54,146 bases of DNA from an uncultured Buttiauxella sp. (lineage in GTDB: Bacteria > Pseudomonadota > Gammaproteobacteria > Enterobacterales > Enterobacteriaceae): contig CAMLJN010000024.1 of assembly GCA_946480445.1 (NCBI GenBank), positions 1 through 54,146 on the forward strand, in the 5' to 3' direction. The position numbers and the translations under genes are program-made. The notes under the pieces were generated by a model. It was not told the origin of the DNA. It ran no database searches and saw nothing but the letters and a program-made list of their open reading frames with translations. Below are positions 13,425 to 17,166 of the stretch, in pieces (position 1 is the stretch's first letter; each line of letters opens with the position of its first letter).

Positions 13425-14882
13425 TTATTCGATAAAGCCCAGCTTAAACTGCACCTTCCCTGCCAGCGAAGCCAGTTCAGGGTTTTCAGGGTATAATGCG
13501 AGTATCGGGAAAAAGACAGCGCCGCCAATAATACTCCTGCTGTTCGAGTATCCAGGGCGCAACCCCCAAATATTCTGGTAGGTCATAGGCACTTGCTGCC
13601 CGTAAATCTCAGCGTTACCGATATACAGCATAATATGCCCCTGAATGTAGACCAGCGTGGTGAACGGTTTGCCGTGCTCTTTCAGGTAGCTTATTCGTGC
13701 GCTGACGTTTTCTTTGCTGAGGTCAACGACCCTCGTTGCGGCCTGTATCTGCGCGGCTGAGTTTCTGGGCAGAAACAGACCGAAAGGCATGAGCAGACTG
13801 CGTATTTCAGCAGAACAATCATTATAAAAGTTATAATTTCCCCATCCATAAGGCCTGCCACTCATGGATTTCATGAGTATCGCCACATTGGCGGGCGTCA
13901 TCTTCCAGGGCATGGCTGCAAACTCATCCGTTGACAGTTTGATCCAACGGATTTCCGCCCTGCCGTCACGTCCGGCTGCAGGTGCCGCGACCTGGAAAAA
14001 GCCGGCCTGAAGATTTCTGAAAGGAAGAAGGGTTCCTGGACGTGCCGTAAAATAAAACAGGCCATTTTCCTGGACAGTGACCGGGTTTTTAATAATGGCC
14101 CCCAGCTGTTTTCCGGCAAGGGACATCCACCGACTGACAAACGCTTGATCGACGCGAGCCACATCTTCACTGTGAACCCATCCCGTTACCGTAGGAGAAA
14201 GAACGTACCTCCAGGTTTTGTCTCTGCTGGCCGTGAGTACATAGACCGGCGTGCCGGGTCGGATAGAGGATATTTGTAAATTATCAAAAGGATACCCCTG
14301 TCCTGCCAGCCGCGGATCGTCATAAGCCGGATCCTGCGTCGGCAGAGCCCTTACCAGCGTCTCCCTGATGACAATCCCCCGACCTGAAGGCTGATAAATG
14401 TCGCTTATTCGGGTATCCGCATTATTCCATAGCTCTTGCTTCCAGCGAGCTGAATGTGTCCTGAAGTTTTCTCCCCAATAGGTGCTCCCGTCGTTGAGAT
14501 AATGCATCATTCTCGCATCGCGGATACGTGTTGCTTTGTCATTAAGAAGAGAGGCGACATAGTGAGGATTCCAGGGCGATCGATCCTGCTTGTTCATACC
14601 AAAATAGCGGGATTTCAGGGCAGTAAAATATCGCTGCTGTGTGGCAGTATCGAGGACAGGAACGTTTATATTTTCAGCGCCGGGGGAGATCCATTTATCA
14701 ACGGACTGCGAATAGTTGGCGATTGGAAAAACCGTTTTTGTCCGGTCAATGTAGCCAGAAGCGGCATTCGCACTCACTTTTCCGTTCGCGCCAGGAGGGG
14801 ACAGGCTGCTCTGACATCCTGTTAACAACAGTGAAAAAATCAAGCCCAGTAAAATTGCGTGTGAAGCGTTATTTATCCGCAC
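13425..14882 (-). CDS. NlpC/P60 family lipoprotein with SH3 domains (putative peptidoglycan endopeptidase)
   Basis: 485 residues from a GTG start with AAGGGA upstream. A lipoprotein signal ends in the lipobox LLTGC (Cys23); Gln at +2 predicts the outer membrane. The next ~100 residues fit the N-terminal stabilising helices of this family. Two bacterial SH3 domains follow (~165-320), then the NlpC/P60 domain with catalytic Cys356 (NDCSAEIR) and His416 (GHIMLYIG). Such enzymes cut gamma-D-Glu-diamino-acid links in stem peptides. The Cys motif is DCSA rather than the usual DCSG, a mild change also seen in active members. Transcribed divergently from the trpS2 leader. Confidence 0.87.
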   Translation of the reverse strand: MRINNASHAILLGLIFSLLLTGCQSSLSPPGANGKVSANAASGYIDRTKTVFPIANYSQSVDKWISPGAENINVPVLDTATQQRYFTALKSRYFGMNKQDRSPWNPHYVASLLNDKATRIRDARMMHYLNDGSTYWGENFRTHSARWKQELWNNADTRISDIYQPSGRGIVIRETLVRALPTQDPAYDDPRLAGQGYPFDNLQISSIRPGTPVYVLTASRDKTWRYVLSPTVTGWVHSEDVARVDQAFVSRWMSLAGKQLGAIIKNPVTVQENGLFYFTARPGTLLPFRNLQAGFFQVAAPAAGRDGRAEIRWIKLSTDEFAAMPWKMTPANVAILMKSMSGRPYGWGNYNFYNDCSAEIRSLLMPFGLFLPRNSAAQIQAATRVVDLSKENVSARISYLKEHGKPFTTLVYIQGHIMLYIGNAEIYGQQVPMTYQNIWGLRPGYSNSRSIIGGAVFFPILALYPENPELASLAGKVQFKLGFIE

Positions 14883-14980
14883 GACCGATCCCTTACGATA
14901 AAATCACATTATTTACCGGGCCTGGCGAGATAAAAATCGGGTATTACGCTGACCTGAGCAACGAACACCGTTGTCTGGAG

Positions 14981-15011
14981 TTGCCTGCTAAGAAAAGGAG
15001 TGATACTTTAC
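14981..15011 (+). promoter_or_regulatory. Possible promoter for the trp-leader / trpS2 transcript
   Basis: TTGCCT (from about 14981) is separated by 17 bases from TACTTT, itself preceded by TG as an extended -10 (TGATACTTT). Matches are 4/6 and 3/6 plus TG. If used, the mRNA would begin almost at the leader ATG (15016), making the leader nearly leaderless. That would fit its poorly spaced Shine-Dalgarno. Weak; a start site further up is equally possible. Confidence 0.3.
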
Positions 15012-15015
15012 TTTC

Positions 15016-15072
15016 ATGAAATATATCCCTCAGTCCTGCCTCTGCGTTATTTCCTGGTGGCGCGTTAACTAA
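15016..15072 (+). CDS. trpL-like leader peptide with tandem Trp codons (18 aa)
   Basis: ATG at 15016, stop TAA at 15070-15072; the peptide is MKYIPQSCLCVISWWRVN. Two adjacent Trp codons (15055-15060) lie four codons before the stop, as in E. coli TrpL (WW near its end). The next gene, 117 bases on, is a tryptophanyl-tRNA synthetase. AGGAG lies at 14996-15000, but the 15-base spacing is long, so translation is either weak or starts on a nearly leaderless mRNA. The peptide itself is probably only a sensor: a ribosome stalls here when charged tRNA-Trp is scarce. Trp is the rarest residue, so WW in so short a frame at this location is unlikely to be chance. Not experimentally supported. Confidence 0.65.
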   Translation: MKYIPQSCLCVISWWRVN

Positions 15073-15184
15073 CGCGGCGTCAGCTTCCTTTGTTTTAAAA
15101 AGCTCGAACTGGCCGCTGGAGCGTGGCGAGTTTCATAGCTTAGCGATCGTGCGTCACCTCCAGCAAAACATTTTTTTGCAGGAG
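15044..15184 (+). promoter_or_regulatory. Candidate trp attenuator controlling trpS2
   Basis: Overlapping alternative pairings are visible. Region 1: GCGTTA (15044-15049 and again 15062-15067) can pair with TAACGC (15070-15075). Region 2: GCGGC (15074-15078), together with AGCTT after it, pairs with AAGCT and GCCGC (15112-15116). Region 3/4: GCTGGAG (15115-15121) pairs with CTCCAGC (15158-15164), with flanking GTG/CAC support, followed by AAAACA and seven Ts (15171-15177). Regions 1:2 and 2:3 share 15074-15075, and 2:3 and 3:4 share 15115-15116, giving a classical exclusive chain. CTCC (15158-15161) plus GCAAAA can instead pair with TTTTGC and the trpS2 GGAG, so translational control is also possible. 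Confidence 0.6.
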
Positions 15185-15189
15185 ACATT

Positions 15190-16209
15190 ATGAAAACCCA
15201 AACGTCCGTTTTACCCACTATTCTCACCGGCGATCGTCCTACCGGGGCATTGCATCTGGGCCACTATGTTGGCTCGTTACGCCAGCGGGTTTCGCTCCAG
15301 GCGACACACCAGCAGTATATTCTGGTGGCCGACCTCCAGGGGTTGACCGACAACGGCAGCAATCCTAAGAAAGTTGCCGACAACATTGTTGAGGTGCTGG
15401 CGGATTATCTGAGCGTCGGCATCGACCCGCTTAACTCCACCCTCTGCCTGCAATCTGCGCTACCCGCGCTGGCAGAATTAACGATGCTGTATATGAATAT
15501 AGTGACACTGTCACGAGTGCAGCGAAATCCAACGGTTAAACATGAGATAGCGCAGAAAGGCTTTGCGGGCAGTATTCCCACGGGATTTATGGTGTATCCG
15601 ATAAGTCAGGCTGCCGATATCACCGCATTCAGGGCCAGCGTCGTGCCCGTTGGCGACGACCAGCTGCCGATGATTGAACAAACCAATGAAATCGTCCATA
15701 AGATGAATAGCCTGCTCGCAGAACCCGCACTTGTCCCCTGCAAAGCGTTGCTCAGCAATGTTGGCCGCCTGCCCGGCGTGGATGGCAACGCGAAGATGTC
15801 CAAGTCGCTGGGTAATGCCGTCTCCCTCTCAGCCTCTCCGGATACCATTTCACAGGCGGTGGCCGCGATGTATACCGACCCGGGACATATTCGCATCAGC
15901 GATCCGGGAAAAGTTGAAGGCAACGTGGTGTTTACCTATCTGGATGCGTTTCATCCCGATACGGCTTACGTTCAGGCGCTGAAAACCCACTATGAGCAAG
16001 GTGGTCTGGGCGACAGGCAGTGCAAGAATATACTCAATGACTGTCTGCAAGCGCTGCTTGCGCCCATCAGAGAGCGCCGTGCTGAGCTGATCGCTGACAA
16101 GGGCCAACTGCTGGGGATCCTGCAAGCTGGCACTGAAAAAGCCCGTGAGGTGACGCAGCAAACCTTGCTGGAAGTAAAACGCGGTCTGGGACTGCCGGTG
16201 ATGTACTGA
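15190..16209 (+). CDS. trpS2: Auxiliary tryptophanyl-tRNA synthetase (TrpRS II)
   Basis: 339-residue class I synthetase that charges tRNA-Trp. The HIGH-type motif is in GALHLGHYVG (about 20-28) and the KMSKS loop is in NAKMSKSLGN. It is clearly divergent from E. coli TrpS (334 aa), so it is probably a second copy; the housekeeping gene is normally beside dam/rpe. At the tryptophan pocket the usual D-Q-H-A-I-T reads D-L-Q-G-L-T. His43 of the Bacillus enzyme, an indolmycin contact, is therefore replaced by Gln50. Auxiliary TrpRSs with changes at this residue resist indolmycin-type inhibitors. GGAG precedes the ATG. Preceded by a Trp-codon leader with attenuator-like structure; convergent with glsB. 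Confidence 0.88.
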   Translation: MKTQTSVLPTILTGDRPTGALHLGHYVGSLRQRVSLQATHQQYILVADLQGLTDNGSNPKKVADNIVEVLADYLSVGIDPLNSTLCLQSALPALAELTMLYMNIVTLSRVQRNPTVKHEIAQKGFAGSIPTGFMVYPISQAADITAFRASVVPVGDDQLPMIEQTNEIVHKMNSLLAEPALVPCKALLSNVGRLPGVDGNAKMSKSLGNAVSLSASPDTISQAVAAMYTDPGHIRISDPGKVEGNVVFTYLDAFHPDTAYVQALKTHYEQGGLGDRQCKNILNDCLQALLAPIRERRAELIADKGQLLGILQAGTEKAREVTQQTLLEVKRGLGLPVMY

Positions 16210-16236: not shown

Positions 16237-17166
16237 TCAGAAAATTGAGCGACCTAAACGACGGGCCAGTATTTCGAGCGCCGCAGTTCCTGCCAGCGAG
16301 TTACCGGAAGCGTCGAGTTCAGGGCACCAGACGGCGATTGACATCTCGTGAGGCACAACGGCGATGATCCCGCCCCCTACGCCCGATTTCCCCGGCATCC
16401 CTACGCGATAGGCAAATTCGCCAGCGCCGTCGTACATTCCGCTGGTCACCATTAGCGCGTTTATCTGGCGAGTCTGCTGGGCGCTTATGACGGGCTCGGG
16501 CATCTGGGGCGAAACACCCTGGTTTGCCAGAAACAGGAAGGTCCGGGCCAGCTCCAGGCAGCTCATTTTTAGCGCGCAGTAATGGAAATAGTTCTGCAGA
16601 ACGGTGATCACATCGTTATCAAAATTGCCAAACGATTTCATCAACCACGCAATTGCCGCGTTGCGGGCGGAGTGCTCAAACTCGGATTTTGCGACACGAG
16701 CATCATAGGCCAGGTCGGGCTGGTCGGCGAGCAGGCGCACCACTTCAAGCATTCTCTGTTTAGGCGCGCTAAGACGGGTTTGCAGCATATCGCATACCAC
16801 CAGGGCACCAGCATTAATAAAGGGGTTACGGGGTTTACCCTGCTCAAGCTCCAGCTGAACCAGAGAATTAAACGGCTGGCCGGATGGCTCCTTCCCTACG
16901 CGGTGCCAGATTTCAGCCTCTTCGTAGCGGCTCATGGCGAGCGCCAGGCTCAGGACCTTTGAGATAGACTGAATGGAGAAGCGTTCCCGGGCATCGCCCG
17001 CGCTGAACACTTCACCTTGCACGGTACAAACCGCAATGCCTAATTTATCGCCGGGGACTTCCGCCAGGGCGGGAATATAATCTGCCACCTTACCCTGGCC
17101 GATCAGCGGCCGGACCTGCGCCAGAATTTCTTCCAGCAACGCATTATCTAACAAACCTGACACCAC
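16237..17166 (-). CDS. glsB: Glutaminase GlsB
   Basis: About 309 residues (E. coli GlsB/YneH 308). Hydrolyses L-glutamine to glutamate and ammonia in the cytoplasm; serine-dependent beta-lactamase-like fold. The catalytic SxxK is Ser67-Ile-Ser-Lys70 in [14 protein letters not shown]. Other family blocks are [33 protein letters not shown] and the glycine-rich [16 protein letters not shown]. Two GTG codons lie in tandem at the start; GGAG is three bases before the first and six before the second (17163), so the second may be the true start. It sits ~110 bases after sad, as in E. coli (yneI-yneH), and may be cotranscribed with it. Confidence 0.94.

Follow-up and report, generated by a model that had tools for sequence, protein, structure and literature searches.

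The auxiliary tryptophanyl-tRNA synthetase (TrpRS) gene trpS2 is, we hold with reasonable confidence, governed by a ribosome-mediated attenuator that senses Trp-tRNA; on this reading the enzyme is probably insensitive to inhibitors, and translation of trpS2 is the main output in the window (i.e., the whole stretch of DNA analysed, 54,146 nucleotides from an uncultured Buttiauxella sp.). A sequence-only reading had placed an 18-codon ORF with tandem Trp codons directly before trpS, and these coordinates were confirmed by direct reading (Table 1). It had also proposed that a ribosome on the leader senses Trp-tRNA and thereby controls termination. The first part was upheld; the termination wiring was not supported for the window.

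Table 1. Features of the leader-trpS2 region, in window coordinates
Feature	Position	Strand	Basis or remark
-35 element TTGCCT of predicted leader promoter	14981..14986	+	sequence; 17-base spacer; TT enriched in relatives
Extended -10 element TG-A-TACTTT	15001..15009	+	ends 6 bases 5' of leader ATG
Leader peptide ORF MKYIPQSCLCVISWWRVN	15016..15072	+	sequence; ATG 15016-15018, 18 codons, stop 15070-15072; without Shine-Dalgarno (SD) at usual spacing
Tandem Trp codons TGG TGG (putative sensor)	15055..15060	+	in frame, near C-terminus
Arm 1	15054..15066	+	MFE fold, swap test; predicted to pair arm 2 without a ribosome stalled on the Trp codons
Arm 2	15071..15083	+	overlaps leader stop codon; core GCGGC 15074-15078; predicted to pair arm 1 (OFF) or arm 3 (ON)
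Arm 3	15100..15116	+	fold, comparison, swap test; core GCCGC 15112-15116
3-4 loop and flanks, forming putative anti-sequestor	15115-15125	+	fold, swap test; loop/arm 4 core GCTGGAG 15115-15121
Arm 4	15123..15141	+	3:4 hairpin, no U-run in window
Arm 5 CACCTCCAGC	15155..15164	+	core CTCCAGC 15158-15164; predicted to pair trpS2 SD region (5:6, OFF) or loop/arm 4 GCTGGAG (4:5, ON)
T-run and arm 6 GCAGGAG (15178-15184)	15165..15184	+	contains trpS2 SD 15180-15184
trpS2, auxiliary tryptophanyl-tRNA synthetase	15190..16209	+	TIGR00233, 220 bits

The auxiliary synthetase

The product of trpS2 (TrpRS2) was 27% identical to the other TrpRS of the genome (TrpRS1), and one of its two closest solved structures was 2a4m, annotated 'Tryptophanyl-tRNA synthetase II', which we take to come from Deinococcus. 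The residue matching His43 was Gln in all 110 of 110 TrpRS2 sequences and His in TrpRS1 of this genome. An extract of PMC4899734 implicates H43 in indolmycin sensitivity and describes a change to Asn in resistance. Judged by this residue, TrpRS2 is probably insensitive to indolmycin-type inhibitors, bearing in mind that it has Gln where the published change is to Asn.

The gene is accessory: it was present in 33 of 246 family genomes (E ≤ 1e-80), both other same-genus genomes in that sample being without it, and a strict protein search across the class (E ≤ 1e-105) identified it in 2 of 369 genomes, one being that of the window. No match to positions 14900-15300 was found in E. coli genomes. 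Three Klebsiella records in a plasmid collection matched, inside trpS only, and in the one plasmid record examined, for which the gene table is incomplete, the leader was unannotated. Within the window, trpS2 is flanked by a gene for an SH3/NlpC-P60 protein (13425-14882, strand -) and, on its other side, by a glutaminase gene (16237-17166).

Distribution of the leader and its association with auxiliary copies

A tandem-Trp leader preceded trpS2 in all 33 trpS2-bearing genomes among the 246 family genomes, and in 46 of 80 relatives; conservation of the Trp pair among orthologues had been put forward as a check on the sequence-only reading, and these loci bear it out. Leader-bearing relatives comprised Enterobacterales, Photobacterium, Vibrio, Pseudoalteromonas, Marinomonas, Cocleimonas, Massilia, Chromobacterium and some alphaproteobacteria. 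The position of the leader, before trpS2, was identical across gamma-, beta- and alphaproteobacteria, which exceeds what chance would give, and the peptides were variable apart from the Trp pair. A Trp-rich ORF at L079 was set aside as not being a leader.

The presence of the leader followed the number of TrpRS copies, which was established for 75 of the 80 genomes (L007, L016, L047, L048 and L050 were left out). All 44 leader-bearing genomes had another TrpRS over the cut-off. Where TrpRS2 was auxiliary, the leader was present in 44 of 47 genomes, against 0 of 28 in which a TrpRS2-type enzyme was the only TrpRS. In 28 of the 31 tested genomes lacking a Trp-Trp leader, no TrpRS other than a TrpRS2-type enzyme passed the cut-off (25 Acinetobacter, two Undibacterium and one other Moraxellaceae); since sole-copy status changes only twice on a quick tree, a sign test on this association cannot reach 0.05. 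Three genomes combined an auxiliary copy with the absence of a Trp-Trp leader: L018, where the element has a single Trp codon; L068, which is unexplained; and L029, from Pseudoalteromonas luteoviolacea, where genes for a methyltransferase and an aminotransferase precede that for TrpRS2. For this species, though not for the L029 strain in particular, an extract of PMC5069768 describes an indolmycin cluster that includes a Trp-tRNA ligase. Another TrpRS2 gene of the L029 genome has a Trp-Trp leader (L113).

Some leaders (L036, L025, L021 and L102) depart in layout. In Morganella psychrotolerans the leader-trpS2 region was longer, about 240 bases from start to start, and in L025 about 180; in leaders of the Morganella/Edwardsiella type the stretch between the first Trp codon and the stop spans 14 codons. 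One locus (L115; G045:C5:17200-19000) holds a decayed trpS2 behind a leader without the two Trp codons, with promoter and hairpin partly recognisable, and here leader and trpS2 seem to decay together.

A predicted promoter fixed relative to the leader ATG

The 76 leaders were reduced by similarity to 51 non-redundant sequences and aligned without gaps on the leader ATG; only ATG starts were called and, where several were in frame, that with the best -10 fit was taken. Information maxima occurred at -35/-34 (TT), -15/-14 (TG), -12/-11 (TA) and -7 (T) relative to the ATG. In 27 of 51 leaders the motif TANNNT ended precisely 6 bases 5' of the ATG, and no other offset between 0 and 29 accounted for more than 6; among the 38 loci with a single candidate ATG it occurred at 6 bases in 22, and in at most 5 at other offsets. 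The complete TGNTANNNT stood at 6 bases in 16 of the 51. This conserved position predicts transcription to begin at, or adjoining, the A of the leader AUG, so that the leader mRNA is probably leaderless.

An SD-like core preceded the leader in 9 of 51 cases, as AGGA in 7 of those 9. In several of them CAGGAT is the -10 element, so the core belongs to the promoter. A leader SD with 15-base spacing had been suggested for the window, and its wide spacing conceded to be a weak point; these bases (14996-15000) fall inside the predicted promoter spacer, and if the message is indeed leaderless a leader SD is unnecessary, which would account for the odd spacing.

Six arms and their proposed alternative pairings

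All of the complementary segments named in the sequence-only reading were present: GCGTTA at 15044-15049 and 15062-15067, TAACGC, GCGGC/GCCGC, GCTGGAG/CTCCAGC and the T7 run at 15171-15177. The minimum free energy (MFE) fold of the leader region in the window corresponded to the putative OFF state (-55.9 kcal/mol, z = -1.79; 8 of 200 shuffles folded equally well). In this fold the T-run is part of a hairpin masking the SD, CTCC-A-GCAAAA/TTTTGC-A-GGAG, at 15158-15184. Among enteric leaders generally, the 3:4 hairpin, 3' of arm 2, had a GC stem and a loop resembling GAAA or GGAA, and arm 5, further 3', had two complementary partners: the 3:4 loop with its flank, and the SD region of trpS2.

The pairings were evaluated by a segment-swap test, which compared duplex energies between own and swapped partners in 28 enteric sequences with 5000 permutations. 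All five predicted pairings were better than swapped partners (1:2, z = -5.6; 2:3, z = -3.7; 3:4, z = -9.0; loop/4:5, z = -4.4; 5:6, z = -7.5, or -6.7 for its outer arms alone), the own value being reached by at most 1 in 5000 permutations, with the proviso that relatedness among the sequences inflates these z values. The control pairings 2:5 (z = -0.8), 1:3 (z = +0.4) and 2:6 (z = -0.9) gave no signal and 2:4 was worse than swapped (z = +2.4); one pairing that had not been predicted, of the 3-4 loop with arm 6, was weakly better (z = -2.7). The helices 1:2, 2:3 and 3:4, which are mutually exclusive in series, showed covariation, and the alternative 1:2 and 2:3 pairings first seen in a single sequence gained support from the comparison.

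Alignment A1 comprised 28 sequences: all 31 non-redundant enteric leaders except L025, L036 and L101, whose layouts are longer. Named pairs were formed in 93.1% of cells for the ON state, against 33-55% in slid controls, and in 82.6% for the OFF state, against 29-54%; like the z values, these counts are overstated by relatedness. On two of five measures (pairs with double changes, further pair types) the OFF state did not exceed column shuffles, and on one of five (further pair types) the ON state did not. Unaided, RNAalifold recovered 3:4 and not 5:6, and in place of 1:2 as drawn it paired arm 2 to the Trp codons. On the diverse alignment A2 (21 sequences: 5 enteric plus 16 of 20 others, L075, L077, L080 and L082 being omitted) it paired TGGTGGC with arm 3 through 7 pairs, in none of which both sides had changed; this pairing was set aside because the Trp codons cannot vary.

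Together, these comparisons support a six-arm relay, as predicted from sequence, in which the OFF state consists of 1:2, 3:4 and 5:6 with the SD masked and the ON state of 2:3 and 4:5 with the SD free. Under the proposed mechanism, transcription would begin on or beside the leader AUG, giving a leaderless transcript. With Trp-tRNA plentiful, the ribosome would reach the stop codon and cover arm 2, the 3:4 hairpin would form, and arm 5 would be left to hide the trpS2 SD (5:6). Should Trp-tRNA become scarce, whether through a shortage of tryptophan or through inhibition of TrpRS1, the ribosome would stall on the Trp codons and cover arm 1; arm 2 would then take nascent arm 3, and the freed loop and arm 4 would take arm 5, leaving the SD free. 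Indolmycin-type inhibitors may be the natural trigger of such induction.

Two further layouts were observed. In the alphaproteobacterial L069 and L076, arm 5 (GCGGCGGCTCC in L069, or similar) could pair with arm 2 (GGAGCGGC) as well; release of the SD would then take a shorter route. L101 (1225-1491) has approximately 150 extra bases between arm 5 and the trpS2 SD relative to its relatives, and its SD is still predicted to be masked.

Exposure of the trpS2 Shine-Dalgarno sequence

Full partition-function folds of 50 of the 51 sequences (L082 was dropped, having no SD by the rule of the script) gave a mean probability of 0.205 that the SD is unpaired, against 0.307 in shuffles. The SD was less than 0.5 unpaired in 47 of 50, as were most shuffled means. 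In the putative OFF state, then, the trpS2 SD is covered by a helix that co-varies; the sequence-only reading had allowed for a translational version acting through the trpS2 ribosome site, and it is this version that 5:6, both by its covariation and by its place in the fold, favours.

When the segment beneath a stalled ribosome was taken out of the equilibrium folds, the mean for the unpaired SD rose from 0.205 to 0.277; only 5 of 50 sequences gained more than 0.3, and the window went from 0.19 to 0.20. Equilibrium folding thus barely frees the SD, and the switch would need co-transcriptional folding. With 2:3 enforced, as expected should this helix form ahead of arm 4 synthesis, pairing of the SD with arm 5 fell from 0.73 to 0.44 and 4:5 rose from 0 to 0.33; 9 of 28 sequences gained more than 0.2 in unpaired SD, and the window was among the larger effects (0.20 to 0.60). 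Chimeras of halves from different species performed about as well as own sequences (0.101 against 0.117); therefore, the geometry permits the switch, while tuning sequence by sequence was not demonstrated by the enforced test.

That the fold hides the SD without any ribosome, and that the switch is invisible at equilibrium, would also be expected of a plain SD-masking RNA answering to temperature, to a protein or to TrpRS2 itself, with the peptide incidental. We consider this very unlikely, given that the tandem Trp codons are kept from Enterobacteriaceae to alpha- and betaproteobacteria as the rest of the peptide varies, that 1:2 shows covariation around the stop codon, and that the predicted promoter is fixed relative to the leader ATG. 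It is harder still to credit that leader translation mainly supplies ribosomes to trpS2 by coupling or reinitiation. The leader is indeed a short upstream ORF, presumably cotranscribed with trpS2, but 117 bases separate its stop from the trpS2 start and trpS2 has an SD of its own, as do 50 of the 51 trpS2 starts; the latter count is not independent, since starts were chosen partly by SD fit.

Termination as a possible alternative output

The sequence-only reading had taken GCTGGAG/CTCCAGC and the T7 run for a terminator. A consensus terminator scan of positions 14700-15400 found none in the window, 3:4 forms no intrinsic terminator there, and the MFE fold places the T-run in the hairpin with the SD, and the candidate was rejected. 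In the comparison, the same pairing corresponds to the putative ON-state anti-sequestor, 4:5. The 6-base gap between stem and T-run, recognised from the outset as a weakness, is explained if the stem is not a terminator; and if 4:5 frees the SD, the supposition that starvation prevents this pairing has the wrong sign.

In other members of the class, terminator-like 3:4 hairpins were identified, with at least 5 T of 8 following in at least 24 of 51 leaders and at least 6 T in at least 13; these counts are lower bounds, as the scan admitted loops of up to 12 bases, and L077 and L082 were missed because their hairpins, which do have a T-run, have larger loops. Two Massilia leaders (L075 and L080) combined a strong terminator with an open SD (0.69 and 0.71). 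Such leaders would suit a classical transcription attenuator, in which 3:4 terminates and SD pairing is secondary. That explanation was judged unlikely, though less so than the two alternatives considered above, because 27 of the 51 leaders, including that of the window, had no terminator-like site by the loop-limited scan, 5:6 co-varies strongly, and the SD is on average more paired than in shuffles. The leader class seems to use termination, SD masking or both as output, and in the window control of trpS2 translation remains the preferred reading.

Specificity of the covariance model

A covariance model (R1) was built from 28 enteric leaders. Across the 246 family genomes, its best 31 matches all lay before trpS2 and all 33 trpS2 genomes were matched there; as the training set included 12 of the 33 loci and others are near relatives, the weight of this result rests on the absence of other strong matches. 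At 33 loci outside training (E ≤ 1), 23 of the 25 with a leader were matched, 14 of them at E ≤ 0.01, against 0 of the 8 without one, and there was one stray match, in L040. The single-Trp element of L018 was matched at 86.8 bits. The next-best matches in the family lay upstream of a sodium-dependent transporter gene that has a leucine-rich leader, and at the decayed trpS2. A weak match occurred in the same-genus genome G065 (E = 0.056); weak matches in G158 (C18), G114, G162 and G140 had the appearance of ordinary terminators and were discounted. The Rfam family RF00513 (Trp_leader) did not match at the locus or in 20 relatives, and an RF00513 element was found elsewhere in the Buttiauxella genome.

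Eleven family genomes have the sodium-dependent transporter; in 7 of them a related element stood before it, and R1 matched 5 of the 7 at E ≤ 0.1. The hairpin of this element, GGTGG/CCACC or GGCCGCC and in many cases followed by a U-run, comes after a leucine-rich leader (L124-L126, L129, L130, L133 and L134), for example MNRQLSLNLLLS and MNVYINNRQLSLNLLLLS, with a GTG start in L125 and L126. By resemblance of sequence, this suggests that the attenuator architecture may be used with another amino acid.

Comparison with known systems

If the proposed mechanism is correct, some Gram-negative bacteria, including some Klebsiella and Enterobacter, hold a TrpRS silent until the main enzyme fails. 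The sensor for failure of the main TrpRS would be encoded in RNA, which bears on TrpRS inhibitors as drugs, and the system would show a means of keeping a spare synthetase off. It would also provide an enteric case of a leaderless leader peptide, and a single leader architecture exchanging termination for translation control. A broader generalisation, offered tentatively and with some doubt, is that of a modular six-arm relay in Proteobacteria: a 1-2-3-4 attenuator would hand its decision to a 4-5-6 start-site exchange on a leaderless mRNA, with an output that slides between termination and SD masking (Massilia versus the window) and a sensor that can be changed, as in the leucine-rich transporter leader.

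The leader-trpS2 system is probably a variant within ribosome-mediated attenuation. The E. coli trp operon leader has tandem Trp codons and mutually exclusive 1:2, 2:3 and 3:4 pairings. Trp codons and these three pairings are common to that type (RF00513) and the present leader, which differs in its two additional arms (5 and 6), in having no U-run in the window and in the lack of an Rfam match. In erm-type translational attenuators, a drug-bound ribosome stalled on the leader frees a masked SD, through four arms. Release of the SD by a stalled ribosome would be alike here, but the proposed signal is uncharged tRNA and the arms number six.

Among synthetase genes, attenuation of the auxiliary TrpRS gene of Streptomyces was reportedly described by Vecchione and Sello in 2010. 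That attenuator likewise lies ahead of a gene for an auxiliary, antibiotic-resistant TrpRS; it is, by the description available, transcriptional and from Actinobacteria, whereas the present one belongs to Proteobacteria, masks the SD in the window and is predicted to be leaderless. Attenuators before trpS in Streptomyces are reported in an extract of PMC1262725 (Seliverstov 2005), which also names a pheST operon attenuator in gammaproteobacteria. The sequence-only reading knew of no described case in enterics, a statement too broad for synthetases in general given pheST (PMC1262725, in extract); for a Trp leader before trpS in Proteobacteria, no report was found among the matches listed for the open-licence literature. 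Compared by that description, pheST is likewise a synthetase operon under attenuation in gammaproteobacteria, but it concerns Phe, the main enzyme and the classical type. Lastly, the trpL transcript of Sinorhizobium meliloti begins at the ATG of the Trp leader peptide (PMC7298713, in extract). In its ATG start it resembles the transcript predicted here, but it serves transcription attenuation of trpE(G).
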